In this document: positions 41,201-57,255 of the stretch, piece by piece
How positions within the stretch are numbered: the stretch's first letter is position 1
Layout: each line of letters starts with the position of its first letter
Notes under the pieces: model-generated
The model's input: the letters and a program-made list of their open reading frames with translations, nothing else
The model's database searches: none
What the model was told of the DNA's origin: nothing
IMG/VR virus record: IMGVR_UViG_3300027858_000006
Location: 1-59,018 of that record
Strand: one strand, 5' to 3'
DNA length: 59,018 nucleotides
Origin: a virus
Made by a program: the position numbers and the translations under genes

Positions 41201-41202
41201 TA

Positions 41203-41352: not shown

Positions 41353-41355
41353 GAT

Positions 41356-41604: not shown

Positions 41605-41675
41605 GTTCATTCCTCTGCTGTGTTTATATTCCTATTTTGGTTTATGTCATATAATAATACTTTGTATAGTTTTTT

Positions 41676-42068
41676 TTATTGTTCTTCAAACACGTTTCCA
41701 ATTATTTCATAACAATTCATGTTTGATCTGTAGAGATTGTATATTTTAATGTTGAGATCTTCTACAGAAATTCCACACCAATTTCCATCAAAACACACTT
41801 TAAAGTTGAAGCCTGTGTGTAAAGATTTTAAAATATCACTTTCATATATTTCGACGTTGTTTTTGTCTTTTATTCCTGTGAACTGCATTGGGATGAACCT
41901 TTCCGGATATATGCCAATATTCGCTTCTGAATGTGGGTCATATTCATTGAATTCATCAAATCCTATGACTGTCCCATTGAGCATCATTCCCATCTTATAT
42001 CCGCTCGTTAATTCATCATAAATCATTTTTTTGAATGATGTATCCCACAATCTAAATTTTAGATTCAT
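41676..42068 (-). CDS. YopX family protein (130 aa)
   Basis: FRLWDTSFKKMIYDE at the N-terminus, MQFTGIKDKNNVEIYESDIL in the middle and YEIIGNVFEE at the end are the YopX/DUF1642 signature. YopX proteins occur in many phages with no defined role. RBS CAGAGGAATAAAAT. Confidence 0.75.
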   Translation of the reverse strand: MNLKFRLWDTSFKKMIYDELTSGYKMGMMLNGTVIGFDEFNEYDPHSEANIGIYPERFIPMQFTGIKDKNNVEIYESDILKSLHTGFNFKVCFDGNWCGISVEDLNIKIYNLYRSNMNCYEIIGNVFEEQ

Positions 42069-42071
42069 ATT

Positions 42072-42281
42072 TTATTCCTCTGTTTCGTTTATATTCTTGT
42101 CTTGGTTTTCCTCGATTTTATCTAACGCACCCATCAGCCTAATAAAAGTAGACATGTGCGGGTCCACCCTCCCAGATTCAAATCTTGATACATACGATTG
42201 AAACACATACGCTGCTTTAGCCAATTCTGCCTGGGTGACACCAAGCGATTCCCTGCGCTCTTTTATGTCTGCTGTGTTCAT
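42072..42281 (-). CDS. XRE-family DNA-binding regulator A (69 aa)
   Basis: ERRESLGVTQAELAKAAYVFQSYVSRFESGRVDPHMSTFIRLM is a Cro/C1-type helix-turn-helix. Nearly the whole protein is this domain. Tandem to a closely similar gene (42303-42518). Probable repressor or antitoxin-like regulator; start ATG 42281 (GTG 42287 possible). Confidence 0.75.
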   Translation of the reverse strand: MNTADIKERRESLGVTQAELAKAAYVFQSYVSRFESGRVDPHMSTFIRLMGALDKIEENQDKNINETEE

Positions 42282-42302
42282 ATTCACTCATCTGCTGTGT
42301 TT

Positions 42303-42518
42303 CTATTTGTAACAATTTAATAATACTAGTTTCAATATTCGGTTCTCTTCTATCTGATCCAGCGCATCCATCAACCTATTCATAGTTGACAAGTGTGGAT
42401 CAATCTTTCCAGATTCAACCCTGGACACGAACGATGGGAACACTCCAGCAACTCTGGCCAATTCTGCCTGGGTAACACCAAGTTCTTCTCTCCGGTTTTT
42501 TATTTCATTTATATTCAT
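42303..42518 (-). CDS. XRE-family DNA-binding regulator B (71 aa)
   Basis: NRREELGVTQAELARVAGVFPSFVSRVESGKIDPHLSTMNRLM is a Cro/C1-type helix-turn-helix, about two-thirds identical to its tandem copy, differing in the recognition helix (VFQSYVSRF versus VFPSFVSRV) and the tail. Strong RBS GAGGAATAACG. Likely arose by duplication. Confidence 0.75.
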   Translation of the reverse strand: MNINEIKNRREELGVTQAELARVAGVFPSFVSRVESGKIDPHLSTMNRLMDALDQIEENRILKLVLLNCYK

Positions 42519-42520
42519 CG

Positions 42521-42871
42521 TTATTCCTCTGTTTTACCCGGCCAAATTTGGTCATATATAGCCTGCACAACCTCTGTTGGTTGTGTTCTCATGTCCAAAT
42601 TATTGATCATATTCTGCATGATTCTTAAGTGCGCCTTTTCTTCAAGCTCAATCTCAAGTTCTGGTGTCCACTGCACCAGCTTTAATTTATGATATGAATC
42701 AATAATTCTACGATATCCATCTAAGTATAAAGAATCATCATCAAGCCTGACATATCCTTTTGGTGTGATTTTCTTTACTGTATGTAAAACATATATGCTA
42801 TTGTTAAAACCATCCTTTTTTGTGTATACTTTATCACCCTGTTTCAATGCTTTAATCCATTCATCATTCAT
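42521..42871 (-). CDS. unknown protein (116 aa)
   Basis: Starts MNDEWIKALKQGDKVYTKKDG (GDKVY turn), followed by a beta region and an acidic helical end. AAGGTGATATTAA precedes ATG 42871, with a TATA-like TTATATAAC further up on the minus strand. Family not recognised; GDxV pattern suggests a small barrel. Confidence 0.55.
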   Translation of the reverse strand: MNDEWIKALKQGDKVYTKKDGFNNSIYVLHTVKKITPKGYVRLDDDSLYLDGYRRIIDSYHKLKLVQWTPELEIELEEKAHLRIMQNMINNLDMRTQPTEVVQAIYDQIWPGKTEE

Positions 42872-42926
42872 TTAATATCACCTTATAGTTATACAATAAC
42901 GTTTAAGTTATATAACTCTTCCGATA

Positions 42927-43121
42927 TCATCTTTGTCTATACCCCGGTCGCACACATTCAATCATCTTGTATCCACTCGACGGTATGCAGCCTTTATACA
43001 ATTTACATGATTGCCTCATACACAAATCACAGCCAACCACCCAGTGGATAAAAGGACAGTGGCATTTCCCATGGTTGTCGAGTTTGGTTAGAGTGGTTGG
43101 TGGTCCGGCTGGGGTTGTCAT
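42927..43121 (-). CDS. small Cys-rich protein (64 aa)
   Basis: Cys-rich core CHCPFIHWVVGCDLCMRQSCKLYKGC (about residues 20-45) with seven Cys in the protein in total could bind one or two zincs. The ribosome site is weak. Moderately uncertain that it is coding. Confidence 0.42.
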   Translation of the reverse strand: MTTPAGPPTTLTKLDNHGKCHCPFIHWVVGCDLCMRQSCKLYKGCIPSSGYKMIECVRPGYRQR

Positions 43122-43161
43122 CGTTTACCATATAAGTGTGCAGTGGTTATCTTTAGACACT

Positions 43162-43374
43162 TCAATCATAAAAACCACGTTTCACTTTCCAGATTGTACT
43201 TAGTGCTGCGCCTGTTGTCTCATGTATCTCTTTTGGTTTCATACCAGCCACACACAACCGTTTTATTTCATTAACTTTGCGTGTCTCCAGTCGTGGGCCG
43301 CCCGCACGTGAGTTCATTTTTAATCTTACTACCCAGTCGTTAAATCCCTCTGCGTTCACTTCTATATTTACCAT
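43162..43374 (-). CDS. helix-turn-helix protein (70 aa)
   Basis: C-terminal half KVNEIKRLCVAGMKPKEIHETTGAALSTIWKVKRG is a resolvase/Hin-like helix-turn-helix (turn in the E/T-G positions, then S-T-I-W). N-terminus is short and basic. Could be a transcriptional regulator. No catalytic domain, so not a recombinase. Confidence 0.6.
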   Translation of the reverse strand: MVNIEVNAEGFNDWVVRLKMNSRAGGPRLETRKVNEIKRLCVAGMKPKEIHETTGAALSTIWKVKRGFYD

Positions 43375-43389
43375 TTGATATCACCATAT

Positions 43390-43947
43390 TCAATCTAACA
43401 AATCATCAAATTCAATCCATCCTCTTTGAATCATTAGTAATGCTACATATCCGAAAACATCAGACACGTCGTTCTTTTTTAACTCGCTTGATTGTTCGAT
43501 TCGTCCTAGCTTGTCATCTATCCTGTTACATATCTGGCTGTCGGCTGGCATGTTCGAGAATATCTGTTTTGGATATAGTGCGGAGTCGCCGTATCTTTTG
43601 TTTTTTTCTATTAAAAACTTTGAGAAATTACTAAACAGTGTGATTATATGTTGTTCAGTTGATGTCATTTTACCTTCTTTGATATCACCTTCTGGTTTCC
43701 ATTCTTCACAGTCTTGGCAATCATCACATGGAGTATATCCAGGATAATCGCCGCGGTATTTACATGTGTTACAATTCATTCTTTCTTGTTCCATTGTTTC
43801 CTCCATAGATGCGTTAGAATCGCCGTTTGTATGGTCATAGGTATGTTGACTTGCCATTATGTGTGTTTTGCCAGTGGTGGGCGTCTGAGGGGCTATGGTG
43901 CCCATGTGGTGGTATGAATTGAATTGCATCCCCGTCCACATTCCCAT
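43390..43947 (-). CDS. MazG/DUF1599-like nucleotide-associated protein with zinc knuckle (185 aa)
   Basis: The second half (FLIEKNKRYGDSALYPKQIFSNMPADSQICNRIDDKLGRIEQSSELKKNDVSDVFGYVALLMIQRG) matches the phage DUF1599 / nucleotide-modification domain 1 signature (K..RYGDSA.....F..., IDDKL.RI, ND.SDV.GY.LL). Before it CNTCKYRGDYPGYTPCDDC gives a zinc knuckle. The N-terminal 30 residues (from ATG 43947) are low quality; a later start such as MNCNTC is possible. Likely acts on nucleotides. Confidence 0.65.
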   Translation of the reverse strand: MGMWTGMQFNSYHHMGTIAPQTPTTGKTHIMASQHTYDHTNGDSNASMEETMEQERMNCNTCKYRGDYPGYTPCDDCQDCEEWKPEGDIKEGKMTSTEQHIITLFSNFSKFLIEKNKRYGDSALYPKQIFSNMPADSQICNRIDDKLGRIEQSSELKKNDVSDVFGYVALLMIQRGWIEFDDLLD

Positions 43948-44468
43948 TATACATACTTCAACAGCCCCCCGGGTTGCTCGAATATCGTACCATCCTGCTT
44001 CATCCTCAAGAGCATCTGTATAAGCTGCTCATGTGAGATGTCAATCCCTTTTGCGTAGATTGTCAAGTCCTGCTCGGTGATCCCAGGCAAGCAGGCATTC
44101 CGGATTAGTTTCATGTTATCTCGCTGGTTGTTGGTGCCGGGAATCCAATAATTCCAATCTATAGAAGGAACTGGCAGTTCATTTTGGATTAAGTATTCTC
44201 TTGTTGCCTGCAACACATCTTTTATATCTATCATAAGTATATCTTCAACTGCGCAGACTGCTATCCAGAATGCCCGTTCAGTCCATTTAGGATTACAGTA
44301 CAATTTATTAATATATGGTTCGTGAAATTGTTTGTGAATTTCGTTATTAAGTTTATATTGTAATATCTGGTATTTGTTACTATCAACTGAACATGAACAA
44401 CCATTTTCGGGTTGCTTAGGCATTGATATCACATCAATTTTAGAAAATATTTGGTCAAATTTACTCAT
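43947..44468 (-). CDS. unknown protein near the origin (173 aa)
   Basis: Start at MSKFDQIFSK (44468), which lies at the last iteron; longer in-frame starts overlap the iteron zone. Helical with two Cys (CSCS), and near the end a helix-turn-helix-like ITEQDLTIYAKGIDISHEQLIQMLLRMKQDG. Could be a replication or partition accessory (inferred from place). Confidence 0.55.
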   Translation of the reverse strand: MSKFDQIFSKIDVISMPKQPENGCSCSVDSNKYQILQYKLNNEIHKQFHEPYINKLYCNPKWTERAFWIAVCAVEDILMIDIKDVLQATREYLIQNELPVPSIDWNYWIPGTNNQRDNMKLIRNACLPGITEQDLTIYAKGIDISHEQLIQMLLRMKQDGTIFEQPGGLLKYV

Positions 44469-44809
44469 TGTAACCACTCTTGTAACCATTTGTATCCACC
44501 ATGTAACCACCTAATAATTTATCAAAAACAGGCACAGAAGGCACTTTGTATCCATGTAACCCATGTAACCACCGAAAATGAACATATACTATAGAATTAT
44601 AAGAAAATATTTTCTCATGCGTGTGTATTGTTTTATTGGTTACAGTGGTTACATGGATACATATTATTATATTATATATTATATATATATATACCGCTAT
44701 CGCTTCTGTCTCTATTCTAACTGTCAAAAAGTGTAACCACCTGTAACCACTTACAAAGTTAGACAGTACCGTAGCATCGTGTTTTTGTGTGTTTGTCATT
44801 GTGGTTACA
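44469..44809. other. iteron cluster with A/T-rich core, likely replication origin
   Basis: At least ten copies of TGTAACCAC or its complement GTGGTTACA (several with one change, e.g. TGTATCCAT): 44469-44477, 44481-44489, 44491-44499, 44502-44510, 44547-44555, 44564-44572, 44637-44644, 44645-44653, 44653-44661, 44732-44740, 44742-44750 and 44801-44809. An uninterrupted A/T stretch (about 44661-44695) lies in the middle, suited to unwinding. It is flanked by a primase-helicase gene and an unknown gene, as origins often are. Another copy is at 48041-48049. Confidence 0.62.
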
Positions 44810-47636
44810 CGCCTCCTGATAGTGAATATTTTATACGAATCACACGAATTGGGTTTTTACTCCCCTTTAATCTTGCTGTTGTTGTGTTTCTATTTTTAGA
44901 TGTTTCGATCCAACCAAATCTATTCCAATCTTTAAGAACTCGCTCTTTCTCAAATCCTTCAACTTCACAGAAATATTTATTAAATACGGTTGGCAATATA
45001 TCAATATGATTAATATGAATGTCTCCATAATAATCAAAGGTTTTTTGTGATATTTCCATCCCGTCAGCATAAAAATATTTTTCCTTTTCATGAACCCATG
45101 AAATAAAAGAATCCCACGCTTTTTGACCATACCCTTTATCTGACATCATCTCAAGCATATCTCTCATGATACTAACACAAACCTCTCCTGGGTCCACAGG
45201 AGAGTAATTAGAATCAATTTCATGTAATACTGATTCAAACAGGTATCCAGCAGTACAGATTACCGCAAATGTATCACTTAATCTACCTCCAACATTTTTC
45301 ATATCTGCGCCAAGATGAACCTCTTTTGACAGGTCGTTGAATTTAATTTTTAATTTGGTATATGTTTTAATCCATTCATCTAAATTTAAAATAATATCTT
45401 TGATAATATACGGACCTATTGATCCATCACACCCAATTATATTTCTTTCAAATGATTTTACTATTTTTTCACTTTTATCATCATTTGCATCAAGACCATT
45501 AAATAATTGAATTACTCTGACATCAGCACCAGCAAATGTCGTATCTGATGTAACTGAATCCTCTCCAGATGTAAGACCAACCACTTTCCATTTGCGTGTT
45601 GTCCTGGTCCCCCCAGTTGCTTTGGCTCTGCCTTTTCCTGTTTCATTTGCTAACATATAGATTATTTTAATAATATCTTCTTTTTTAGACATTTGTGTTT
45701 CATCAAATGCAACAGGCAAGTCCTTACAAAACTGACTAAATTCTTCAGCATAATTTACAGTTACATTTCCAGAATTAGATAGTTTTAGTATATCTCCCCA
45801 TATTGATAATGCAAAGTTTACTAAAGTAGATTTGCCAGTACTGGTTTCTCCCCATTGATGAACTACAAAAGATTTAGCACCAAGTTTTTTAAGCAGTGGA
45901 GCCACAACAGATACATAACACATAAATCTTGCACGAGGATATGTCAATAGTTGTTCTGATGTCTTTACCCATTTTTTTGCGTTTTTGCATTGTGATGTAT
46001 CTAGCGCAGACATAACATTTTCATCACCGTTTAACAGAGTCACAGGCTTATAGGTAATTTTACCAGTGATGTTTTGCTCTATTATGTGGTCCCCATATAC
46101 AAACTTTTGATCATACCAACCCAACTGAGGAAACGCATGTGTGGTCTTAATCACAGACATATTATTAACTAAGAAACTTTTTAAATACATACAAATGTTT
46201 TTTGTTGTGCTTTCTTCAAAAAGAGCACCTTTATTAACCAGTTCTAAAACCCCTCTTTTTTGGAATGCATCGACCTGTGGAATTTCACAAGATACTAATC
46301 CATTGATATCATCTTCAAAACATATCTTTAATAATGTCGTATCATCACTAATATTTTTAATTCTTTCTTTTATCCATATTTTCGATGAAGATATTGGAGT
46401 ACATGTTTCAGTACCTTCTTTATCAAATTTTTGTAGAAACATTCCGTTATCTGAATGTATATAGCCTTCTGGAATGTCATATACAAAATCTCCCTCTAGT
46501 GTTTCAGTTTGTACCATCAGATCCCGTAGATCATCAGCAGAATTGTCCTTTAAAAAATCGGCAAGGTCTATTTTTTCAGTACCGGTTGGTTTAGGTAATT
46601 CAACCATACAAACATCTATACCTCGTCCTACAAGGTAATCTACGGTTGCAAGTGCGCCTTTAGAACCTGCACCGCTTTCATCATTATCATTACAAATATA
46701 AACTGTTTCAAGTCCTTTAACAAGCGAGTATATTTTATCATAATCCGATTTTTTGAACTGAACTGTAACAGGAGATACACACGGGAACCCTTCTTGAATT
46801 GCCATGATGCAATCAGTAACGCCCTCTGTTATAATACAGTTTTTTGCACCTCTCAGGCTGTTTTCGCCGTAAAAAACATCATTTTTCACACTCTGACTGA
46901 TGTATTCGCGTCCTCTGCCGTCTTCATTGTTTTGTTTATAAAGTATGTGCTTTTTATATTTGCCCAATTCATATGGCTTGTCTGGGGTTATCCCATCTAT
47001 TTTTCTGGCTATTGTATATTCCACTTTACCGTTTTTCCAATATGGAAATATATAACGCCCTTGATAAAAATCAAACCACCCATTGGTTGTTTTTATAACT
47101 AGCCCCGACTTTTCTATAATATCTCGGTGGAATATGCCATCCATAGCAGATTGCAATGACTTTCCATCAACTGGAGCAAATCCTATTTTTAATTGGTCAA
47201 TAGTTTCGTTTGATATACCCCATGTTTTTGTGATTTCATAGCGCATATCTTCGGTTAATTGAGTATGATAATATCCTGCTGCTGCCGCTAAAAACGAATA
47301 AATCTCATATGCTTCAGTATCGTATGTTTCATTTTCAAGAGTTACCCCGGCCATTTCAGCAGCAATCTTTAAGATTTGTTTAAAATCTTTTTTGACATCA
47401 AGGTTTTTATTATATGCAATCCAGTCATAAACATCCCCACCAATTCCTGATGCCCAGTCGTTCCATAATTGGATATTTTTATTTATGTTTAGTGATTTGC
47501 CTGACTTGCTTCCTGAGTTTATAGCCCCTGTATATTCCCCATTACCATGAGCAGTCAGATCAATAGTTTCCCCTATTAAGTCAACTATATCTAGCCTGTC
47601 TTTGATTTTGTCAATATTTGAGCGGTCTGCTGTCAT
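44805..47636 (-). CDS. primase-helicase: TOPRIM primase fused to DUF927-type helicase (943 aa)
   Basis: Start at MTADRSNIDKIK (47636) with a GGGGGGTT ribosome site; the longer frame reads through other genes. N-terminal 60 residues (IDKIKDRLDIVDLIGETIDLTAHGNGEYTG) resemble the CHC2 entry but lack the Cys pattern. TOPRIM-like centre (about 260-380): NCIITEGVTDC and YICNDNDESGAG. Helicase domain: WGETSTGKST Walker A (about 593-602), FDETQMSKKEDI, then sensor-like SGEDSVTSDTTFAGADVRVI. The stop codon lies within an origin iteron. It likely opens and primes the origin. Confidence 0.8.
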   Translation of the reverse strand: MTADRSNIDKIKDRLDIVDLIGETIDLTAHGNGEYTGAINSGSKSGKSLNINKNIQLWNDWASGIGGDVYDWIAYNKNLDVKKDFKQILKIAAEMAGVTLENETYDTEAYEIYSFLAAAAGYYHTQLTEDMRYEITKTWGISNETIDQLKIGFAPVDGKSLQSAMDGIFHRDIIEKSGLVIKTTNGWFDFYQGRYIFPYWKNGKVEYTIARKIDGITPDKPYELGKYKKHILYKQNNEDGRGREYISQSVKNDVFYGENSLRGAKNCIITEGVTDCIMAIQEGFPCVSPVTVQFKKSDYDKIYSLVKGLETVYICNDNDESGAGSKGALATVDYLVGRGIDVCMVELPKPTGTEKIDLADFLKDNSADDLRDLMVQTETLEGDFVYDIPEGYIHSDNGMFLQKFDKEGTETCTPISSSKIWIKERIKNISDDTTLLKICFEDDINGLVSCEIPQVDAFQKRGVLELVNKGALFEESTTKNICMYLKSFLVNNMSVIKTTHAFPQLGWYDQKFVYGDHIIEQNITGKITYKPVTLLNGDENVMSALDTSQCKNAKKWVKTSEQLLTYPRARFMCYVSVVAPLLKKLGAKSFVVHQWGETSTGKSTLVNFALSIWGDILKLSNSGNVTVNYAEEFSQFCKDLPVAFDETQMSKKEDIIKIIYMLANETGKGRAKATGGTRTTRKWKVVGLTSGEDSVTSDTTFAGADVRVIQLFNGLDANDDKSEKIVKSFERNIIGCDGSIGPYIIKDIILNLDEWIKTYTKLKIKFNDLSKEVHLGADMKNVGGRLSDTFAVICTAGYLFESVLHEIDSNYSPVDPGEVCVSIMRDMLEMMSDKGYGQKAWDSFISWVHEKEKYFYADGMEISQKTFDYYGDIHINHIDILPTVFNKYFCEVEGFEKERVLKDWNRFGWIETSKNRNTTTARLKGSKNPIRVIRIKYSLSGGV

Positions 47637-47766
47637 TACGAACCCCCCTGATATATAGACTGTGCTCGCACTCCACACAACACGGCATTTCTGGTAGACT
47701 GTCCGGATCAGGCACAGGGTAATTATTAGATAGCCTAACCTCACACGAAATGCACAAGTCGGCCAT
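47611..47766 (-). CDS. small zinc-ribbon protein upstream of the primase (51 aa)
   Basis: MADLCISCEVRLSNN...CCVECEH: Cys4 ribbon. GTGGTGATAAC precedes ATG 47766. The last 26 bases overlap the primase start, carrying its ribosome site. Function unknown, could assist the primase. Confidence 0.55.
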   Translation of the reverse strand: MADLCISCEVRLSNNYPVPDPDSLPEMPCCVECEHSLYIRGVRNDSRPLKY

Positions 47767-47770
47767 GTTA

Positions 47771-47956
47771 TCACCACTTAGGAAATGTAACAGATATGTG
47801 ATTTGTATCAGTGTCTTCTATTTTACAATCTGGGTCGTTTTCGTCTATTTCCGCGCGTCTGATTTTTTCTTTGAGTTTATAATATTCCACTAAAGCTGGC
47901 GGAATCCTAACATATACGCTACCATTAAAACTTCGAAACGTGGTGGTGAGTTTCAT
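47771..47956 (-). CDS. AbrB-like DNA-binding protein (61 aa)
   Basis: MKLTTTFRSFNGSVYVRIPPALVEYYKL is a swapped-hairpin AbrB/MazE-type start (K..T..R...S..VRIPP.L...Y.L..G-like). The acidic C-terminus (NDPDCKIEDTD) completes a small dimer. Likely a regulator or antitoxin, here with no toxin next to it. Confidence 0.65.
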   Translation of the reverse strand: MKLTTTFRSFNGSVYVRIPPALVEYYKLKEKIRRAEIDENDPDCKIEDTDTNHISVTFPKW

Positions 47957-48177
47957 AATATACTCATAAATAACTCATAAGTATATAAGAGTTTACATTA
48001 TTAAAAATTACTACTTTATTACGGCCATTGAATTACTATTGTGGTTACATAAACACCAACATCCACCATATTGCCGACGGCAGCAACATGGTATTATCAT
48101 AAATACCGTATCACATAAAAATCTGTAACTGATAACATCAAAAAATAAAGAGTAATTGGAAAAGTCACCCGAACGTA
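47957..48177. other. non-coding gap with one iteron copy and promoter-like A/T stretch
   Basis: Contains TATA-like AAGTATATAAG near 47980-47991, two ACTCATAA repeats in front of the AbrB-like gene, one origin-type GTGGTTACA (48041-48049), and GGTATT/AATACC (48090-48107). No gene seen. The rest has no clear structure. Confidence 0.4.
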
Positions 48178-48852
48178 TCATGTTTTGTCATTCAGTAGAT
48201 ATGTAATTCTACAATTCCACAAATCCATGTGTACCATTCCGTGGCAGTGAATGCACACCGGGATTAATTTCCAGCGTATTCCTTCACATCCTTGGTTTTT
48301 GTCCATGTCAATATGATGGACGGACAGTTTTTTATACTGTCCATTTGAAGTTATATTTAGATGTTCTGGCAATCCACATATAAAGCACATTCGATCATAT
48401 TTCTCACGGTTAGATTCTTTACATGAATAATTGAATTGTGGACAATATGGTGAATCTGTTATATAACCTTCCCACTCATCATAAGATATGCCTTGTTTTG
48501 CTGCACTCATCCTTTTCTTTGATTTTTCAGTAAGTTTTTTGCCTTTTTTTGCATCACTTAGTTTCTTTCGTGTTTCTGTAGAAGTATGTTTTTTTATATC
48601 CCTCATTGTCTGCCTAAATTCGTCGGAACGTTTTTTACCTTTATTTGCTTCACTTATTTTATGTTTATGTTCTTTAGTAAGAATCCTACCTTTTTTTGCA
48701 CATGATCCACATAATTTTTTATGATATCTATATTGTGTCCAACGGCCGTTGCCACAACTATTACAATTGGTCCACACCATTTTACCCGATTGTGGTTTTA
48801 AATTATTTGGGTTATAGCCTTTATATTTGATAGTAGCTTCAATATTAATCAT
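48178..48852 (-). CDS. HNH homing endonuclease with NUMOD3 repeats (224 aa)
   Basis: Begins INIEATIKYKGYNPNNLKPQSGK, paralogous to the HNH at 34390. Zinc knuckle CNSCG/CGSC, then NUMOD3-like repeats (LTKEHKHKISEANKGKKRS, TRKKLSDAKKGKK, SKKRMSAAKQG), and HNH: CFICGLPEHLN, SVHHIDMDKNQGC, PVCIHCHG (about 155-205). Free-standing on the minus strand between the AbrB-like and NrdD-like regions. Preceded by repeats and an inverted repeat (48855-48960). Confidence 0.8.
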   Translation of the reverse strand: MINIEATIKYKGYNPNNLKPQSGKMVWTNCNSCGNGRWTQYRYHKKLCGSCAKKGRILTKEHKHKISEANKGKKRSDEFRQTMRDIKKHTSTETRKKLSDAKKGKKLTEKSKKRMSAAKQGISYDEWEGYITDSPYCPQFNYSCKESNREKYDRMCFICGLPEHLNITSNGQYKKLSVHHIDMDKNQGCEGIRWKLIPVCIHCHGMVHMDLWNCRITYLLNDKT

Positions 48853-48854
48853 AT

Positions 48855-48960
48855 TATCAACTTCTTAGCAATGATATATATGCGTTGAAGATTAATATAG
48901 TTTTTGACGACTGGTATAATATCATCTTCTTAGCAAAGACTACTATTTTTCCAGTCGTCA
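48855..48960 (-). promoter_or_regulatory. HNH gene leader with direct repeats and a 10-bp inverted repeat
   Basis: TATCAACTTCTTAGCAA (48855-48871) and TATCATCTTCTTAGCAA (48920-48936) match at 16 of 17 bases; TGACGACTGG (48905-48914) and CCAGTCGTCA (48951-48960) are perfect inverted repeats around the second copy plus a T run. TATA-like ATGATATATATG lies between. Layout matches that upstream of the HNH at 32201. Confidence 0.5.
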
Positions 48961-48973
48961 TTCTTAATTGAAT

Positions 48974-49327
48974 TTACTCAAAACTGTTGTTCTTTACGCG
49001 ATCAGCCAGCTCTTGCTTTTTTCCTGCGTTCCATCCGGCGATGTCCTGAATATATCCGGTAACTCTGGACAACTGAGTTACACCATGATTTGAACAATCA
49101 GGACACATGGGCTGGCCGCAAATAGGACAATTGAGAATTCCACCTACTAAATCCCGGCCGCATGCATGATGATTATATTCCACCCATTTACTTAAAGGAC
49201 ATTTTACAGGATCGTCTATGTTTATTTGCTCACCATCATTGAACTCATCCATCCATGCCAGGCATCTGTCGATAAACTCCTGTTTTGGTAATGCCATTGA
49301 TTCTTCGTGTGTGATTGGTTTATACAT
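48974..49327 (-). CDS. stand-alone glycyl-radical domain resembling the NrdD C-terminus (117 aa)
   Basis: After about 40 residues of unfamiliar N-terminus there are Cys C43 and C56, then CPIC (67-70) and CPDC (75-78) as in the NrdD zinc site, followed by SRVTGY (87-92, radical Gly 91), WNAGK (99-103) and DR (109-110). The order RVxGYx6WNxGKxxExxDR matches the end of anaerobic ribonucleotide reductase NrdD. The 500+ residue barrel is absent, so it cannot be a full reductase alone. It may be a spare-part subunit that restores a damaged host NrdD, like GrcA for pyruvate formate-lyase (known principle; here inference). GGTGAAAAATA precedes ATG 49327. Confidence 0.7.
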   Translation of the reverse strand: MYKPITHEESMALPKQEFIDRCLAWMDEFNDGEQINIDDPVKCPLSKWVEYNHHACGRDLVGGILNCPICGQPMCPDCSNHGVTQLSRVTGYIQDIAGWNAGKKQELADRVKNNSFE

Positions 49328-49333
49328 TATTTT

Positions 49334-49486
49334 TCACCAATATAGCATTTGAATTAATATGATAATACTGTTCGTATTACTAAAAATATAAAAATCTGTA
49401 ACCAGCAATAACCAAAAACAAAAAGTAGACCAAACGATGTACGCACACACCGCTATGAACTTAGCAATTTTACTTGAACCCTTCAC
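49334..49486 (-). CDS. small membrane protein (50 aa, GTG start)
   Basis: GTG 49486 overlaps the stop of the upstream gene (GTGA). One transmembrane segment (IAKFIAVCAYIVWSTFCFWLLL). Ends TGG TGA whose bases form the ribosome site of the NrdD-like gene. Found only in this operon; function unknown. Confidence 0.5.
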   Translation of the reverse strand: MKGSSKIAKFIAVCAYIVWSTFCFWLLLVTDFYIFSNTNSIIILIQMLYW

Positions 49487-49629
49487 TCAATCCACCGGAC
49501 TTTCATTGGAGCAATTATTTTCACAAACCACCACCTGAGGCGGTTCATGTCTGTATACTGCTCGGGAAATTCCATTGTTTGTATTGATTTGTTTCGCTCT
49601 ATTTTTAACTGTATATAATTCTGTATCAT
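49483..49629 (-). CDS. small protein, unknown (48 aa)
   Basis: ATG 49629 overlaps the stop of the lipoprotein gene (ATGA). Basic and aromatic at its end (RLRWWFVKIIAPMKVRWIE). No known family. Part of the chain lipoprotein, this gene, membrane peptide and NrdD-like gene. Confidence 0.5.
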   Translation of the reverse strand: MIQNYIQLKIERNKSIQTMEFPEQYTDMNRLRWWFVKIIAPMKVRWIE

Positions 49630-49916
49630 TTGCTCCACAGGTCCCCGTCCTTATCTACCAGAGTTTTACCATCCCTCTCTAGTCGCAGGGCGCCCATAAC
49701 AGCTTCTAGATACACATATTCATTATCATATGTGTAATGCCCGACGTACAAATAATCATTTTCCTGTAGCGTGTACAGGCTATTTTCATCCAATCGCAAG
49801 AAAGAATCTGGATTTTTTTCTGACACGTATTTTCCTTGCGGTCCGTTGTCTGTACAGCCCATTGTTAGCGTTAACAACAGGATTATCAATATTGGTGTAA
49901 TGATCTTTTTATTCAT
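49626..49916 (-). CDS. lipoprotein (96 aa)
   Basis: Signal peptide MNKKIITPILIILLLTLTMGC with a lipobox (LTMGC, Cys about residue 21); the mature part is acidic with repeated Tyr/Asp/Glu (LRLDENSLYTLQENDYLYVGHYTYD), suggesting a small beta domain. Outer surface location is expected in archaea with lipid-anchored proteins. First gene of a four-gene chain with the NrdD-like domain. Confidence 0.65.
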   Translation of the reverse strand: MNKKIITPILIILLLTLTMGCTDNGPQGKYVSEKNPDSFLRLDENSLYTLQENDYLYVGHYTYDNEYVYLEAVMGALRLERDGKTLVDKDGDLWSK

Positions 49917-49919
49917 GGT

Positions 49920-50084
49920 TCATAGCTCCTGTATAGTCAAAACCCGTGTTTCAGTGTTATATTCAACAAGTAAACTTTCCTTAACTGGTAACTTTACTTG
50001 TTTCGCAAACGATTCCTTTAATGTGATCTGTTTGTTGCCGGATTTTCCATCATGCATCCGGCATGTCTCCTTGATAATTGTCAT
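49920..50084 (-). CDS. AbrB-like small DNA-binding protein (54 aa)
   Basis: Starts MTIIKETCRMHDG; ITLKESFAKQVKLPVKESLLVEYNTETRVLTIQEL has the beta-hairpin feel of AbrB/MazE-type domains with LP..L. A leaderless start is supported by a TATA box (about 50112-50122) about 30 bases upstream on the minus strand. Confidence 0.5.
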   Translation of the reverse strand: MTIIKETCRMHDGKSGNKQITLKESFAKQVKLPVKESLLVEYNTETRVLTIQEL

Positions 50085-50104
50085 ATAATCTATATAGTTA
50101 TACA

Positions 50105-50157
50105 AACCAATATATATATTTATGTGTGGTATCCAATAATTATATATATATCTATAA
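50105..50157. promoter_or_regulatory. divergent TATA-rich promoter region
   Basis: Minus strand AATATATATATT (about 50111-50122) serves the AbrB-like gene; plus strand TTATATATATATC (about 50139-50152) serves the secretion cluster from ATG 50172. Both give near-leaderless starts. Confidence 0.55.
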
Positions 50158-50171
50158 CAATATAGAATACT

Positions 50172-50525
50172 ATGAAGTCTATTATAATTGTATTGGTTTT
50201 ATCTATATTGTTAATGTGTATCGCTCCAGCATCCGCAGCATATAATATGTCTGATTTTATGCCCGAAGATCCGATACAGGATATGCAGGACATGGGGGTA
50301 TGGGAATATATAATTTTAATAATAGGGGTATTGTTTGTACTGGCGGTTGTGTCTTCTGCTGGGGCTATACTCATCGGGATGACACAGGGTAACATCGGTA
50401 GTATTATGAAATCAACCACAATGGCAAACCATGGGAGTTTTACAATCCTCAGAACTATCATAATGGTTATCGTGGCATTCATGGCGCTTGGTGTCATATT
50501 CTATTTCATCAATGGTGGAATATGA
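50172..50525 (+). CDS. VirB2-like pilin (117 aa)
   Basis: N-terminal signal peptide MKSIIIVLVLSILLMCIAPASA, then a short acidic stretch and two transmembrane segments (YIILIIGVLFVLAVVSSAGAIL; TILRTIIMVIVAFMALGVIFYFI). Signal peptide plus two-TM architecture fits VirB2/TrbC pilins of type IV secretion systems. First gene of the cluster; ATGA overlap with the next. Confidence 0.65.
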   Translation: MKSIIIVLVLSILLMCIAPASAAYNMSDFMPEDPIQDMQDMGVWEYIILIIGVLFVLAVVSSAGAILIGMTQGNIGSIMKSTTMANHGSFTILRTIIMVIVAFMALGVIFYFINGGI

Positions 50526-51468
50526 AAACCATTGTTTTTTTTTTCTGATTCTTTTTTTACCTTACATGGCTTCTGCTGAGTTTGATGATATATTTGATAT
50601 TCTTAATGAATCGATCTTAGATGAAGATTGGAATGTTACAATGGAATATCCCACCGCGATCCACGAAACTCAATCACATGAACATATCAGGGGGTGGGTT
50701 GATATTATAGGCTTTAATCAAACTGTTGAGATAAATGGAATTGAATATTATAACCAATCAGAACCCATTGTGGAATATAACGTATGGGGGGATGGTTTTG
50801 GATTTAATGATAATTTAGATTGGGTTGTAGTTGAAGACGACAGGACATATACAACCGGAAACATGACAACAGCAGATATCGATATTCATATGCTCTGGCA
50901 TGAATCCAGTCTGAGATGCAGGACTGTGATGGGCCATACATATTGCTGGATTCATAAAGATTATCATCATGAAAATACAACATTTTCAACAACCGAGCCC
51001 ACCCCACAAGCATATCCAAAGATTGAATCACCACAATGCTATATCACTATTTACAATAATTCATTTAATTCACATATAGAGGTTTTTGTACCCGTTGATA
51101 AATGGCAGAGTAAAGTAAAATACCAGTACAAAAATGAAACGATCATACGATTTAACCAGATCGGGATTATTGAAACCGGCGCAGCAAACATTTCATATAC
51201 AACTCAGTGGAGCCCACCAACAGACAATTTAAAATTCCTAAAAGACAGCATGATTATAACCTGCACCAACACCAGTCAGTTTAATCTATCTCATCTCAAT
51301 GTCACGATATACACACCATATGATAAAAAAAACATAACCGAGTACAATGTAACTGAAATTACTCATGTTCCCGGGAAAGAATTCTATCCATTCTTTTGGC
51401 CGTTCATTGCAATTCTGTTGGTTTATGGAATATGGATTAAATCAAATTTAAAGGGGTTGATGTTATAA
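50522..51468 (+). CDS. surface protein with C-terminal membrane anchor, frame break in signal peptide
   Basis: ATG 50522 overlaps the previous stop (ATGA, GGTGGA ribosome site) and starts a good signal peptide MKTIVFFF; but a T10 run (50535-50544) puts the frame into a TGA, and the rest (LILFLPYMASAEFDD...) is one or two Ts out of frame (11 or 8 Ts would fix it). The mature part (about 280 aa) has many N-x-S/T sites, beta type, and a C-terminal TM (FFWPFIAILLVYGIWI). An in-frame GTG/ATG start (50488 or 50509) also exists without a clean signal. See findings. Confidence 0.55.
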
Positions 51469-52403
51469 AACTTATATATTTCATAGTAATTTTATTGATG
51501 CTAATCCCAGTTAGTTCTGCTGATATCTCTGATCTAATCCCATCAGCAGGCGCCCAGATGATCCACGATGGAATAATGTTCACATTGGTATCCATAGGTG
51601 ATTCGTGTATGGATGCCGGATTCGAAATCAATAATGTCACGAGTGGAGACGCATCAAACAGTACAACAATGAACGCTGTGTTCGGCGTTGCTACATGGAC
51701 ATACGACCCCTATGAAAACGAAGGCATCCGGGATATTATCAAATTGGTAATGTCTGTTTGGTTGATCTTGACAATAATACAGATATTAGCAGGGATCACG
51801 TGGGTAAACATCCATGATACACACCCCAATGCAGCAGAATCACTCTCATTTATAGCAGGAATTAACCACAATTCAACATTTAATAATTATATGACTGGAA
51901 TAAAAGATAATATATTCATAACAATGTTCTCGTATATTGGAATTTATTTAATATTATCATTAAATCTTGTTTTTACAAACATGATAATGTTTTCAATGCT
52001 TGATGTGATAGCTCCAACACCGGATAACATCATGCTGTATACAATGATGGGATTTACATATCTGGTAATGGCGTTCTTTTTCTTGATCCGGTTTCTGGTG
52101 ATCAATATCTTCGCTGCATTTGCTCCGATCCTTGGGGTGATGTACGGGAGTAATTATTTTACCAGGGCGATAGCAGTCAAATCATTTATATTTTTCTGCG
52201 CAATGGTATTCATGCAGACCGTGATTGTATTTTTTACATCAGTAGGACTCATAGCTATAAACGGAATGGGATTTGGATTCGCTTCTAGACCGGGTCCATA
52301 TATCGCATTGTGTATCCTGCTTGTTATAATTGCAGTGGTAATGATGGTCGGCTGGGCATTTATACGCAGATCAAGCAGAACAGTTATAAATTTAGTTGCA
52401 TGA
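51465..52403 (+). CDS. VirB6/TrbL-like polytopic membrane protein (about 312 aa)
   Basis: Signal-peptide-like start IKLIYFIVILLMLIPVSSADIS has no ATG/GTG/TTG in front; GGGG (51453-51456) lies about 8 bases before an ATA (51465), which is proposed; the next canonical starts are TTG 51495 or ATG 51498 inside the hydrophobic stretch. About six transmembrane segments (e.g. KLVMSVWLILTIIQILAGI, YIGIYLILSLNLVFTNMIMF, TMMGFTYLVMAFFFLIRFLV, IFAAFAPILGVMYGSNYF, IFFCAMVFMQTVIVFFTSVG and ILLVIIAVVMMVGWAFI). This is the layout of VirB6-like channel components. Confidence 0.55.
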   Translation: MKLIYFIVILLMLIPVSSADISDLIPSAGAQMIHDGIMFTLVSIGDSCMDAGFEINNVTSGDASNSTTMNAVFGVATWTYDPYENEGIRDIIKLVMSVWLILTIIQILAGITWVNIHDTHPNAAESLSFIAGINHNSTFNNYMTGIKDNIFITMFSYIGIYLILSLNLVFTNMIMFSMLDVIAPTPDNIMLYTMMGFTYLVMAFFFLIRFLVINIFAAFAPILGVMYGSNYFTRAIAVKSFIFFCAMVFMQTVIVFFTSVGLIAINGMGFGFASRPGPYIALCILLVIIAVVMMVGWAFIRRSSRTVINLVA

Positions 52404-52413
52404 GGTTAAAAAT

Positions 52414-53274
52414 ATGTCAAAACATGAAAACAAAAGCGTTCCAAAATCATTAATCTATCACAGTAAAAATACAATTAGCATGTTCTCAAAACAGTGGCTA
52501 ACAGTAACATTATTATGGGCTTTTGTAATTGTGATTGTCTCGGGAATAATCATTAATTTTGTGCATAACCGAATTTGTCTTATATTGTTGTTGTGTGTGC
52601 TGATTGTGTGGATTATGCTATGGGTTAAATTGTTCAGGTCAGAGGCTGTGATCACTCGCACTATTTTAACAGTGAAGTACTATCTGCGCAAGGACGCAGG
52701 CATGACCTACCTGCCAAAATTCACAATGCAGCCGAAGGTCATTGAGAAATATTTCCCTGTGTTACATGTGCATGAAGGCGGAGTAATTGAATACACACAA
52801 AACCGATTTGGGGTGCTCATGGATATGGATACCCCACGGGTGGATAAAAACAACCTGGATACACATTTACATGGCATTACATCTACATTAAATTCATTAA
52901 ATCCAGGTGATGTTTTCAAAACGTTTGCGTGCTCTCGTTTGGTAACTCAAAAACCCATCCTGTCTGATATACTAGACTCCACCAATGACCCGGACAAATC
53001 ACAAACACAAAGAGATCATCTTTATTCAATGTATGACCAGCTCACTGATGAAAAAGAACATAATGATGTAGTACACTGGCATTCGTCAGCATCATTGAGT
53101 TTTAATAATTCTGTAAAATCTATTGAAGATGCCAGGATTGTATCACAAAACACCATCCCGGGTCTCACCAAAATCATTAAAAAATCCGGTGTGCGCTTAT
53201 ACCCACTCGAGGACCCAACTGATATCACTATGACATACTATCAAACAATCATGCAAAAGGAAGTGAAAATCTAA
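52414..53274 (+). CDS. PrgI/VirB3-like membrane protein (286 aa)
   Basis: Start MSKHENKSV (52414), RBS GAGGTTAAAAAT. Two adjacent transmembrane segments (about 29-48 and 52-70: WLTVTLLWAFVIVIVSGI, ICLILLLCVLIVWIMLWV), followed by a soluble half that resembles the N-terminal part of VirB4 (VIEYTQNRFGVLMDMDTPRV, LDTHLHGITSTLNSLNPGD). The PrgI-VirB4 gene order is common in Firmicute and archaeal systems. The last base overlaps the VirB4-like ATG. Confidence 0.6.
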   Translation: MSKHENKSVPKSLIYHSKNTISMFSKQWLTVTLLWAFVIVIVSGIIINFVHNRICLILLLCVLIVWIMLWVKLFRSEAVITRTILTVKYYLRKDAGMTYLPKFTMQPKVIEKYFPVLHVHEGGVIEYTQNRFGVLMDMDTPRVDKNNLDTHLHGITSTLNSLNPGDVFKTFACSRLVTQKPILSDILDSTNDPDKSQTQRDHLYSMYDQLTDEKEHNDVVHWHSSASLSFNNSVKSIEDARIVSQNTIPGLTKIIKKSGVRLYPLEDPTDITMTYYQTIMQKEVKI

Positions 53275-55694
53275 TGTGGATCACAGATAAGATACGGAAT
53301 GTTCAGCACCAGCACGGCAATGCAGTGGCCGCAGCAAAAACAGAGATATACTGGGATTCAATAGCCAAACAAATTGAACCCGAGCTCATCGAGGAGCTCC
53401 CTGGATATCTAGTGATCAACCAAGACACTTTTGTAAAATCTATCGTCGTTGGTATTCCAATTTCCAAAGCGGACGGCTGGCCTGCTGGTTTGTCTCCTGA
53501 ATTTCAGGACCAAATACTCGACACCGGTATGTCTGAAGGCTGCACAATATCGATATCTAGTACATTTATCCAAGTGCCACAAGATGAAGCCCTTGCATTG
53601 TTAGAGGGGGTTATGTTCAACAATAGCAGCAACAGAGAGATTAGTGCTACAAGGAACCCAGACGGCACCGCATCTCAATATTTAGAAGTAGATAAAAAAG
53701 GATATCTATATGACTATGAACAAATCAAACTAGGAACACAAAAAATGTTTCATGTTGCATACATCATCACGATATGGGCAGACGATATGGATACAATGTA
53801 TAGAGCAACATCACATATAGAATCCGTACTGGGTAGCCATAATATTTTAAAACAATATCCAATCCACAGGATGCTAGATGCGTTCCTGGCATCACTCCCG
53901 TTCCCAACCGTTGTTGATTTTGCATTTACTCAAATGTTATCGGGGTATGCCAGTATGTTGCCGTGCACCCGCAACCCCAACTCAAGAACGGACGACACCG
54001 GATTGTTGTTTGGGCACGACACCAAAACTAAAAACGAAGTCGTGGTTGACATAGACCAATTACCAGCAGGGCACATGATGTTGGTTGGCCCAACCGGCGC
54101 CGGAAAAACATATCTATTGTACCTGCTGCTTATGCGGTCATTTAGCCAACAAGGGAACCGGGTAATCCTTGTAAATCCCAAGAAAGACACAGGCACATCT
54201 TGTGAATCTATTGTGGAATATTTCAACAAAGATCAACAGATCGCATCGTTTATAAATATAGGACCAGGGTACAATAATATAAATATATTACAAATTCTTT
54301 TTGATGAAAATATTATATCATCTGGTACTTGGGACTCAATAAGCATGTATGATTATCAGAAAGTATTGATCTCTCAGTTTTTTCAAGTCTGGTTTAAGGA
54401 TACCTTTTCACCCAACATGGATAATTATCTTGATAAAACACTTACAGAAGTATGGAACGCACATGGGATATACAGAGAGAACCCTGAATCCTGGAATGGC
54501 GCAGACTGGCCGACCCTCTCAGACCTGCGGGCCAGGTGGGAACTGGACCTCAAAAACAAATCGAGAGATTATGTTACAGCCGAAGCCATGCTGAATAAAA
54601 CATTTATCCTTGGTCCAGATGGCCGCTTATCATACATGAACCAAAAAACCGATATCGACATCTCAAAAGATTTTATTGTATTAGATATCAGTAATGTTCC
54701 TGATGATATCCAGGACGCAATGAATATCTTTTTAACGGGAGTTATGGCCCTAAGATTCAAAACAGATGCAATGAAAAAAACCATCATTGCTATTGATGAA
54801 GCAGGGGTATTTTTCAGGAATCCCAAACTATCCAATTTTATATTGAAATTGATAACACAGGGAAGAAGTTTTAATATTTCACTTTGGTTGGCAACTCAGC
54901 AAATGGTCGACTTGAAAAAGGCCGACCTTATGGAAGAGGTCAGGACAAATATCTTCTTAGATGTAATCCTTGGAGCTAATTTAAAGGACGATACTATGAA
55001 ATATGTCCAGACATACTTCAACTTATCACAGAATGATGTGTCTAACCTGCTCGATGCTGACGTTGGTGAAGGTATCTTAAAAGTAGATGGTGAGAGTACC
55101 CCAGTCACCTTTAAATCTACATCACTTGAACATTCAATTATCAAAGGAAATTATCAAGAAAAAACATCTACTGATAGTGTTATCGTTACATTGCCCGAAG
55201 TTACAAAAATCACAAAAGATCAAGGTTTTTATGTTGATGATTGGATCGTGGGTAACTCACTTGAGATCATGCCAACACATGGATTTGAGCCACTTAAAGC
55301 ACAGAATCCCGTCGGTGCTGGTCAAGTGCGAGTATGGGTTCCAGCCGGCGCCGTGACCAACAACAAGATCATGAATCAATCGTTTGATCATTTCGCTACA
55401 GTGGTTATCATTGCTGGATACCTAGCGCAAAAAGGTTACACTATTGAGATAAATCACTGGAACGATGCAGACATTATAGCTACAAAAGATGATTATAAAT
55501 TAGCTATAGAGTACGAACGACCGGGCAGCCACACCGAGAAGGAACTTGTTGATAAGAAAATGCGAGCTGAAAAGCAACATGGGGCGGTGTTATTTGTTGG
55601 CCAATCCAGCAATATTAAACAACTTCGTTCAGTCGGAATCGCTGTGCAGCGAGGGGCTGAACTTGTAGAATACATAGATGAGATAAAAACATGA
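53274..55694 (+). CDS. VirB4-like ATPase with nuclease-like C-terminal domain (806 aa)
   Basis: The N-terminal about 200 residues are of VirB4-type. Walker A GPTGAGKT at about residues 272-279, Walker B IIAIDEAGVFF at about 504-514, and later GRSFNISLWLATQQ and DVILGANLKDDTMKYV fit VirB4/TraC-type T4SS ATPases. The last about 110 residues (ITKDQGFYVDD... to the end) add a module with IEINHWNDADIIATKDD and LAIEYERPGSHTEKELVDKK, reminiscent of PD-(D/E)XK nucleases (D about 731, E-x-E about 743-745). This would be an unusual fusion; activity is not established. Confidence 0.75.
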   Translation: MWITDKIRNVQHQHGNAVAAAKTEIYWDSIAKQIEPELIEELPGYLVINQDTFVKSIVVGIPISKADGWPAGLSPEFQDQILDTGMSEGCTISISSTFIQVPQDEALALLEGVMFNNSSNREISATRNPDGTASQYLEVDKKGYLYDYEQIKLGTQKMFHVAYIITIWADDMDTMYRATSHIESVLGSHNILKQYPIHRMLDAFLASLPFPTVVDFAFTQMLSGYASMLPCTRNPNSRTDDTGLLFGHDTKTKNEVVVDIDQLPAGHMMLVGPTGAGKTYLLYLLLMRSFSQQGNRVILVNPKKDTGTSCESIVEYFNKDQQIASFINIGPGYNNINILQILFDENIISSGTWDSISMYDYQKVLISQFFQVWFKDTFSPNMDNYLDKTLTEVWNAHGIYRENPESWNGADWPTLSDLRARWELDLKNKSRDYVTAEAMLNKTFILGPDGRLSYMNQKTDIDISKDFIVLDISNVPDDIQDAMNIFLTGVMALRFKTDAMKKTIIAIDEAGVFFRNPKLSNFILKLITQGRSFNISLWLATQQMVDLKKADLMEEVRTNIFLDVILGANLKDDTMKYVQTYFNLSQNDVSNLLDADVGEGILKVDGESTPVTFKSTSLEHSIIKGNYQEKTSTDSVIVTLPEVTKITKDQGFYVDDWIVGNSLEIMPTHGFEPLKAQNPVGAGQVRVWVPAGAVTNNKIMNQSFDHFATVVIIAGYLAQKGYTIEINHWNDADIIATKDDYKLAIEYERPGSHTEKELVDKKMRAEKQHGAVLFVGQSSNIKQLRSVGIAVQRGAELVEYIDEIKT

Positions 55695-55719
55695 ATCATG
55701 CAATCGGAGATGTTATTAC

Positions 55720-55803
55720 ATGTTATTTTTAGAAAACAAGGGTTGTTTGGGCTGGAATCGCAGCGGTACATATATCATATCAGGGGACTGGAACAATGAC
55801 TGA
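55720..55803 (+). CDS. possible tiny protein (27 aa)
   Basis: MLFLENKGCLGWNRSGTYII, ending overlapping the next ATG (ATGA); GGAGATGTTATTAC precedes it. Coding status weak; may be a coupling leader. Confidence 0.3.
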   Translation: MLFLENKGCLGWNRSGTYIISGDWNND

Positions 55804-55981
55804 AGCTATAAAAAATGTTAATACAAAACTACCGCTTATCATACTGATACTGGTATGTATTTGTGTATGTGCATGTCTGTGTTATTTTATTTCGTGTGTA
55901 TTACATCTACCACAATTTACGGTTGTTCTGGGTGGTATATTGGCATCGTGGATGTTAGGAGTATATCTGATAACACGGTGA
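55796..55981 (+). CDS. small membrane protein with two transmembrane segments (61 aa)
   Basis: LPLIILILVCICVCACLCYFIS and FTVVLGGILASWMLGVYLI are hydrophobic. The second is similar to YSVIGGILTTWILIMLL of the minus-strand protein at 56218-56403, so they may be related. Last gene of the secretion cluster. Confidence 0.55.
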   Translation: MTEAIKNVNTKLPLIILILVCICVCACLCYFISCVLHLPQFTVVLGGILASWMLGVYLITR

Positions 55982-56005
55982 CTTGTGTGGTTAAAAAAAA
56001 ACAAT

Positions 56006-56263
56006 TTAAATAATAATTTGTATGATTGATATTATCATACCTACTATTATTATAATCAAACCCAGCCAATGACACAGATTTGATCCCAGCGGCATGTCAA
56101 ATATATTGAATGTCATTCCCATTAAAAATAATATTAGTGCAGCTGGTAACCAATAATAAAACAAAACCAATGCTAGGAAATATATATTTACCAGTATAAT
56201 ATATTTCAAAAATGATATTATTGGCCAAATGGATTGTATTTTAACAACATAATTAAAATCCAT
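56006..56263 (-). CDS. small membrane protein (85 aa)
   Basis: Three likely hydrophobic helices (IISFLKYIILVNIYFLALVLFYY, PAALILFLMGMTF, WLGLIIIIVGMIISIIQIII). GGAGGGATTTTAACGAC precedes ATG 56263 inside the upstream gene, which it overlaps by 46 bases. Function unknown. Confidence 0.55.
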   Translation of the reverse strand: MDFNYVVKIQSIWPIISFLKYIILVNIYFLALVLFYYWLPAALILFLMGMTFNIFDMPLGSNLCHWLGLIIIIVGMIISIIQIII

Positions 56264-56403
56264 GTCGTTAAAATCCCTCCGATAACCGAATATATGAGTT
56301 GGATATCATATAAATCAGTTATAATAGTCCCCAACCCCACACCAAATATAATCATAATCAATCCAAAGATTAATTCGGTGGCTATGTCTATTTCGTCGAT
56401 CAT
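56218..56403 (-). CDS. small membrane protein, possible paralogue of 55796 gene (61 aa)
   Basis: Two hydrophobic segments (ELIFGLIMIIFGVGLGTII and IYSVIGGILTTWILIML). The GGIL-T/S-W motif is shared with the plus-strand 61-aa protein. Its 3' end overlaps the 85-aa gene in a different frame. Confidence 0.55.
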   Translation of the reverse strand: MIDEIDIATELIFGLIMIIFGVGLGTIITDLYDIQLIYSVIGGILTTWILIMLLKYNPFGQ

Positions 56404-56426
56404 TTTATTTTACACCTCTGTTTTAA

Positions 56427-56570
56427 CTAATCAGGTTGCAATACTTGTAACTCTAGGCAAAAATTATCATATTTATGCCCTTTATACAATGGACATTCCC
56501 GGCACTCGATTCCATAACATCCATTTTTCATAATCAGCTCTATTGCTGCTATGATTTTTTCTTTACTCAT
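56427..56570 (-). CDS. tiny Cys-rich protein (47 aa)
   Basis: NGCYGIECRECPLYKG...FCLE: C18, C23, C26 and C38 form a DUF1540-like or small zinc-type spacing. GGAGGAAAACA precedes ATG 56570, which overlaps the end of the upstream gene. Confidence 0.55.
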   Translation of the reverse strand: MSKEKIIAAIELIMKNGCYGIECRECPLYKGHKYDNFCLELQVLQPD

Positions 56571-56691
56571 TGTTTTCCTCCTTGTATTTGATTAAATCAT
56601 TAATCACATCTGAGACGCTCATTAGTTTTGATGTGCGGTGATCCAATATCCACTCCCTCACAATGTCGTCAATTCTTACAACCTTTGACAT
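56563..56691 (-). CDS. possible ribbon-helix-helix/VapB-like protein (42 aa)
   Basis: MSKVVRIDDIVREWILDHRTSKLMSVSDVINDLIK: a beta strand with alternating V/V/I, then helix-turn-helix with SVSDVINDLI, as in RHH regulators and VapB-type antitoxins. GAGGTGATACTA before ATG 56691. No toxin-like partner is seen. Confidence 0.55.
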   Translation of the reverse strand: MSKVVRIDDIVREWILDHRTSKLMSVSDVINDLIKYKEENNE

Positions 56692-56696
56692 TAGTA

Positions 56697-56861: not shown

Positions 56862-56863
56862 AT

Positions 56864-57130: not shown

Positions 57131-57141
57131 TTTCATTCCTC

Positions 57142-57190: not shown

Positions 57191-57219
57191 TACCGTCACC
57201 TTTGCGTAGCGTTTATGGT

Positions 57220-57251: not shown

Positions 57252-57255
57252 CATG

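Follow-up and report, generated by a model that had tools for sequence, protein, structure and literature searches.

A free-standing NrdD-type glycyl-radical protein in a virus record, and its relatives in methanogens with fused and split class III ribonucleotide reductases

Class III ribonucleotide reductase (RNR) is described as one polypeptide, NrdD, together with an activase. With SAM, the activase NrdG installs a radical on a glycine of NrdD, and it is at this glycine that oxygen cuts the chain (PMC3019208). In pyruvate formate-lyase (PFL), the domain lost after oxygen cleavage is replaced by GrcA/YfiD or, in phage T4, by Y06I; only YfiD and Y06I have been validated, spare parts for other glycyl-radical enzymes being a possibility (PMC8683613). 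The host genes nrdHDG co-cluster in expression with the replication genes of a Methanosarcina virus, and such viruses therefore appear to lean on class III RNR (PMC9694453). An RNR that is divided over two polypeptides is known in NrdJa/NrdJb, which is, however, a class II, B12-dependent enzyme (PMC9669993). The nrdD coding regions of phages can be interrupted by introns, inteins and homing endonucleases, but the pieces are then those of one gene and lie together (PMC3653736). Neither a split class III RNR with a separate radical subunit nor a spare part for NrdD was found in the open-access literature searched, and we regard the novelty of both as provisional.

In this paper we describe P0001, a gene in the virus record IMGVR_UViG_3300027858_000006, and compare its product with stand-alone and fused radical domains of viruses and methanogens. 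The window, that is, the whole stretch of DNA analysed, comprises 59,018 nucleotides and is identical with the record. A sequence-only reading had proposed here a 117-aa gene with the motifs RVTGY, WNAGK and DR, which encodes a free-standing NrdD-type radical domain without a catalytic barrel. Both proposals were borne out; the strand, which had been left unstated, is minus, and DR occupies residues 109-110, after WNAGK (Table 1).

Table 1. Positions of P0001, its parts and two neighbouring genes in the window
Feature	Position	Strand	Basis or remark
P0001, gene for a free-standing NrdD-type glycyl-radical protein, 117 aa	48974..49327	minus	ORF, Pfam and NCBIfam profiles, relatives
Putative RBS-like GGTGA	49334..49338	minus	Shortly 5' of the P0001 ATG; function inferred
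N-terminal helical part, residues 1-42 (LPKQEFIDRC..W.DEFNDG)	49202..49327	minus	Alignments and model helices
Family-specific element, residues 43-66 (CPL..WVEYNHHACGRDLVGGIL)	49130..49201	minus	CP..C.H(D/E).(V/I)..I kept in most stand-alone members
Compact four-Cys site, likely zinc, residues 67-78, C-x2-C-x4-C-x2-C	49094..49129	minus	Alignment A3
RVTGY, residues 88-92, with Gly91 the predicted radical site	49052..49066	minus	ORF, PDB match, alignment
WNAGK, residues 99-103, canonical NrdD C-terminal motif	49019..49033	minus	ORF, PDB match, alignment
NUMOD3-motif gene, homing-endonuclease-like	48178..48852	minus	121 bp downstream of P0001
Primase-helicase-like protein (CHC2, TOPRIM, DUF927)	44805..47774	minus, as P0001	Used in host inference

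The profile of the NrdD C-terminus agreed with this assignment. Pfam NRDD matched P0001 with an E value of 4.1e-11 and 42.7 bits, over the curated cut-off of 26.2, and the match covered positions 511-561 of 562 only; the catalytic barrel with its finger-loop cysteines is missing. The NCBIfam model TIGR02487 (NrdD) matched residues 74-112 (E 1.5e-12, 46.8 bits), and a score below its full-length cut-off of 326 is expected, since P0001 is one domain of the full-length model. The nearest solved chain is an NrdD (PDB 8p23, E 2.7e-5), Pfam NRDD is matched as well by each of the 19 relatives in the alignment, and no match to a YfiD or PFL family was obtained in Pfam, NCBIfam or PHROGs. Profile-profile comparison of the stand-alone family with the tail of fused NrdD gave a homology probability of 99.7%. 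A profile scan of all 59,018 bases found neither a barrel nor any other piece of NrdD.

The claim of a complete NrdD signature held in part. The glycine loop and WNAGK are canonical, and P0001 shares RVTGY...WNAGK...DR with the C-terminal domain of fused NrdD (PF13597). The zinc-type spacing of the cysteine pairs is not that of fused NrdD, although four cysteines are present: the pairs are 4 residues apart in P0001 and roughly 10-14 in fused NrdD, whereas the distance from the second pair to the glycine is the same in both. C67, C70, C75 and C78 are invariant in the alignment of the stand-alone family (A3), as are S87, R88, T90, G91 and Y92, and across 19 diverse members the glycine loop, WN.GK and the cysteine site do not vary. 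A structure model of the lone domain placed helices at residues 7-11 and 15-29; from residue 81 onward the block mean pLDDT was ~48-62, so that the glycine loop has low confidence, and a structure search with this model, uncertain in that loop, gave no structural match.

Stand-alone copies were found in other viral contigs (L002, at 66% identity, L003/L004, L011, L012 and L013) and in MAG contigs (L014, at 72% identity, L015 and L016), and none of the six family-bearing viral records searched contained a barrel. Two features mark this family: a compact C-x2-C-x4-C-x2-C site and an upstream CP...C.H(D/E).(V/I)..I element, the latter in most members. Their N-termini are of two kinds: the helical residues 1-42 of P0001 are common to the stand-alone copies of Methanosarcinaceae, and in their place the Methanomicrobiales copies have a zinc ribbon, which P0001 lacks and which the related viral copies L011, L012 and L013 keep. 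In a tree of 50 radical domains every stand-alone copy fell on one side of a branch and every fused NrdD on the other (99/100), with the copies from viruses, Methanomicrobiales and Methanosarcinaceae forming one branch against the fused NrdDs. Because the tree rests on 52 columns only, its inner order is unsure, including which cellular group supplied the viral copy. In its core P0001 is 44-48% identical to fused tails and 62-78% to most stand-alone copies, and over its whole length it is 50-53% identical to the Methanosarcinaceae copies compared and 38-42% to Methanomicrobiales copies. The idea that P0001 is a fragment of a fused Methanosarcina NrdD was rejected, given its own branch in the tree and the lower core identity to fused tails. 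By these sequence comparisons P0001 is a member of the stand-alone family and not a fused-NrdD tail; it differs from fused NrdD in being a separate polypeptide with a different upstream region and a branch of its own.

The stand-alone family is under purifying selection. Between viral-type copies pN/pS was 0.23-0.35, dN/dS was 0.16-0.19 in the two viral-type pairs that allowed an estimate of dS, and two pairs of Methanosarcinaceae stand-alone copies gave 0.05-0.09. Two of the MAG contigs call for separate mention. On L014, from the Dehalococcoidia MAG CSMAG_200, a terminase-like gene adjoins a radical-domain gene of archaeal-virus type, and the contig is probably a virus contig mis-binned in a bacterial MAG; a Chloroflexota host, which L014 had suggested, was rejected on account of this terminase-like gene. 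On L015 (MAG GLR112), positions 1348-2100 encode a fusion of the N-terminal part of a relative of the 3659-4420 protein of the virus record with a radical domain behind it.

A separate radical-domain gene is present in 169 of the 199 Methanomicrobiales genomes searched. Among the matches listed, the NrdD match ends at profile position 500-516 in ~130 genomes, a count made from those matches (105 contiguous and 24 starting only at ~39-58), with the exceptions of G138, in which it reaches 524, and of G017, the only one with an additional NrdD to 560. The contig L016 itself lies in a Methanomicrobiales genome, and the NrdD match there stops at position 514. At the 29 Methanomicrobiales loci examined the barrel C-termini stop soon after a conserved YFAFTRD, and no radical-domain motif occurs in the ORFs that flank these 29 barrels. 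The finger-loop cysteines, CYQCC, are retained in the split barrels. The cysteine just before the radical domain, which is invariant in fused NrdD, is kept in only 5 of the 29 and is Ser or another residue in 24, as would be expected if the metal site had moved to the other polypeptide.

G025, a genome in a single contig, has NrdG2 at 0.86 Mb, the barrel at 2.01 Mb and the radical gene at 2.36 Mb, and at L053 the next gene overlaps the stop of the barrel, as seen when three frames past the stop were read. An assembly break or frameshift behind the split was rejected on the strength of the 29 consistent C-termini, the gene overlap at L053 and the G025 loci, which are hundreds of kb apart. The split NrdD is an order-wide arrangement in Methanomicrobiales and not an assembly fault. 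As NrdD in this order ends before the radical domain, the stand-alone protein is apparently an obligate subunit of the split enzyme there, and, to judge from these sequences, its domain can evidently serve in trans. About 25 Methanomicrobiales genomes have no NrdD match at all, and these may use a class II reductase or be incomplete. Several others (G068, G078, G123 and G131 among them) have NrdD frames of 1,160-1,740 aa in which the match is interrupted near profile positions 53 and 259, which suggests inteins in the split barrel.

NrdD has also been divided elsewhere. A small radical-domain gene adjoins the barrel in two Chloroflexota genomes (L047/L063 and L048/L064) and in the archaeal MAG CSMAG_438 (L052), and in the virus L006 a barrel, an NrdG-like gene and a radical domain follow each other, with the NrdG-like gene between the other two and all on one strand. 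In the Chloroflexota genomes and CSMAG_438 the cysteine region stays on the barrel and the cut falls just before the glycine loop, a different site from that in Methanomicrobiales, which suggests independent split events.

Methanosarcinaceae carry the stand-alone protein beside a fused enzyme. The remaining matches in the phylum, over 393 genomes, were mostly fused NrdDs of ~760-820 aa. An intact stand-alone copy was found in 10 of 112 Methanosarcinaceae genomes and a decayed one in a further genome, G268. Nine of these ten genomes were checked together with G268; each had a full-length NrdD (1-562), and none had a barrel lacking the radical domain. At the N-terminus these copies are built like the viral protein (LP...F..RC..W..EFN.G...CP...WV..N). 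A second full-length NrdD, of ~610-624 aa, accompanies the stand-alone copy in seven of nine genomes with an intact one, and is missing in G381 and G536. In G268, the radical-domain gene (L154, 6834-7163) has decayed after the glycine loop (TVAGWLERVKKAGIEG) and lies just upstream of a class II gene at 7403-9802; perhaps this B12-dependent, oxygen-tolerant class II reductase made the spare part dispensable.

A stand-alone domain beside an intact fused enzyme is, by analogy, the genomic layout of GrcA and PFL, and in this the Methanosarcinaceae members of the family resemble GrcA/YfiD and Y06I. Unlike those proteins, the P0001 family is NrdD-type and not PFL-type, carries a four-Cys site and is apparently obligate in Methanomicrobiales; unlike the interrupted nrdD genes of phages, it constitutes a gene family in its own right, with no linkage to a barrel. 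The GrcA-like spare role put forward in the sequence-only reading is plausible insofar as the nearest cellular homologues, those of Methanosarcinaceae, stand beside intact fused NrdD. "Spare" is not the sole cellular role, however, because the same family forms a separate subunit of split NrdD across Methanomicrobiales.

The host of the virus was inferred from homology and composition. Genome searches took in positions 39019-59018 of the record and, in Methanomicrobiales only, also 1-20000. Proteins 40-47% identical to the primase occur in five Methanosarcinaceae genomes, and a VirB4-like ATPase is 39% identical over its full length to one Methanosarcinaceae relative (L199). Against Methanomicrobiales, nearly all DNA matches of 39019-59018 were to the P0001 gene alone, and over both segments the matches were to that gene or to short fragments. 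The GC content of the record is 0.40 and that of the Methanosarcinaceae loci with stand-alone copies 0.41; of four Methanomicrobiales loci measured, three had 0.60-0.63 and one (L159) 0.42. A CRISPR link to Methanomicrobiales, considered for six loci with short matches to 1-20000, was not supported: repeated 20-mers were absent from five, and at the sixth (L129) there was only a three-copy repeat with 63-base spacing, ~660 bases away. The host is likely a member of the Methanosarcinaceae. Barrels without a radical domain of their own were seen in Methanomicrobiales genomes, and the likely host is probably of the fused type.

We propose, with a probability of about 0.6, that P0001 is a viral trans-acting glycyl-radical cofactor for the class III NrdD of the host, charged by host NrdG. 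The virus would supply the radical domain only; NrdG2 scored over cut-off in 10 of 10 host genomes tested, and none was found in the 59-kb record or in four related virus records. The host activase would place the radical on Gly91; once docked on the barrel of host NrdD, the viral domain would hand the radical on to the finger-loop cysteine, so that dNTP synthesis could continue during infection. In a Methanosarcinaceae host, with its fused and intact NrdD, the protein might stand in for a C-terminal domain that had been lost or cleaved by oxygen, much as GrcA does in PFL, and so restore or supplement NrdD; a Methanomicrobiales host would gain more of the radical subunit. Several points count against this proposal. 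Methanogens live mostly without oxygen, and the need for rescue is thus not obvious; most Methanosarcinaceae have no stand-alone copy; and the spacing of the zinc site differs from that of fused NrdD. A broader claim, which we hold only tentatively and put at somewhat under even odds, is that a viral spare part for NrdD would be the first glycyl-radical rescue protein outside PFL, in a family that also provides an obligate subunit of the split RNR in Methanomicrobiales.

The oxygen-damage element would fall away if the virus infected a Methanomicrobiales-type host with split NrdD, in which an extra radical subunit would raise the amount of active reductase. The family is centred on that order, where the split is nearly universal, and the zinc ribbon of L011, L012 and L013 is of the Methanomicrobiales type; but the N-terminus of P0001 and its whole-length identities are on the side of Methanosarcinaceae, and other genes of the record match Methanosarcinaceae, with Methanomicrobiales matches confined, in the two stretches tested (1-20000 and 39019-59018), to the P0001 gene or short fragments. 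We consider such a host unlikely. It is less probable still that P0001 acts as a decoy or regulator, either restraining the host reductase by competition for NrdG or the barrel or altering its regulation through an exchange of radical domains. Inhibition is conceivable for a free domain with the same binding partners, and a change of role would be compatible with the altered zinc site and the new N-terminus. A pure decoy, on the other hand, would have no need of the invariance seen at Gly91 and its surrounding residues, and a lower dNTP supply would be of little gain to a DNA virus.

The cofactor might also be meant for a different target, either some other host glycyl-radical enzyme or the shorter second NrdD of ~610-624 aa. 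The frequent presence of that NrdD beside intact stand-alone copies is in keeping with this, but G381 and G536 have a stand-alone copy without it, P0001 is NrdD-like in sequence and its significant family matches are to NrdD models, and we regard a different target as very improbable. That P0001 is a decaying, functionless fragment of an acquired nrdD hardly deserves credence: the chromosomal relative in G268 is visibly decayed, but the low pN/pS of viral-type copies, the invariant motifs and the recurrence of one consistent architecture in several copies all speak against decay. The evidence bears on the description of class III RNR. Instead of a single NrdD with its activase, most Methanomicrobiales seem to use a barrel and, encoded apart from it at scattered loci, a glycyl-radical subunit and an activase, and viruses carry the radical subunit. 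If true, this would be a natural system with the glycyl radical on a detachable part, in which it becomes directly testable whether other glycyl-radical enzymes have spare parts, and an unusually cheap form of viral support for host dNTP supply without oxygen.

The record encodes a portal protein, an SU10-type major capsid protein and a terminase, genes that mark it as a head-tail virus. No end repeat of at least 10 bases was present, and the record may therefore be incomplete. Homing-endonuclease-like genes are found at 48178-48852, 37742-38554 (matches to NUMOD3 and HNH repeats), 32201-32638 and 34390-35226 (by sequence judgement only). The first of these directly adjoins P0001 and is not part of the proposed mechanism. 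Positions 50172-55694 hold a block of membrane-protein genes with a VirB4/TraG-like ATPase, a conjugation-type module that is unusual in a virus. A 152-aa gene with no Pfam match is common to the record (1564-2022), L002 (4821-5219) and L003 (9225-9686), and in L002 and L003 it lies close to the radical-domain gene.
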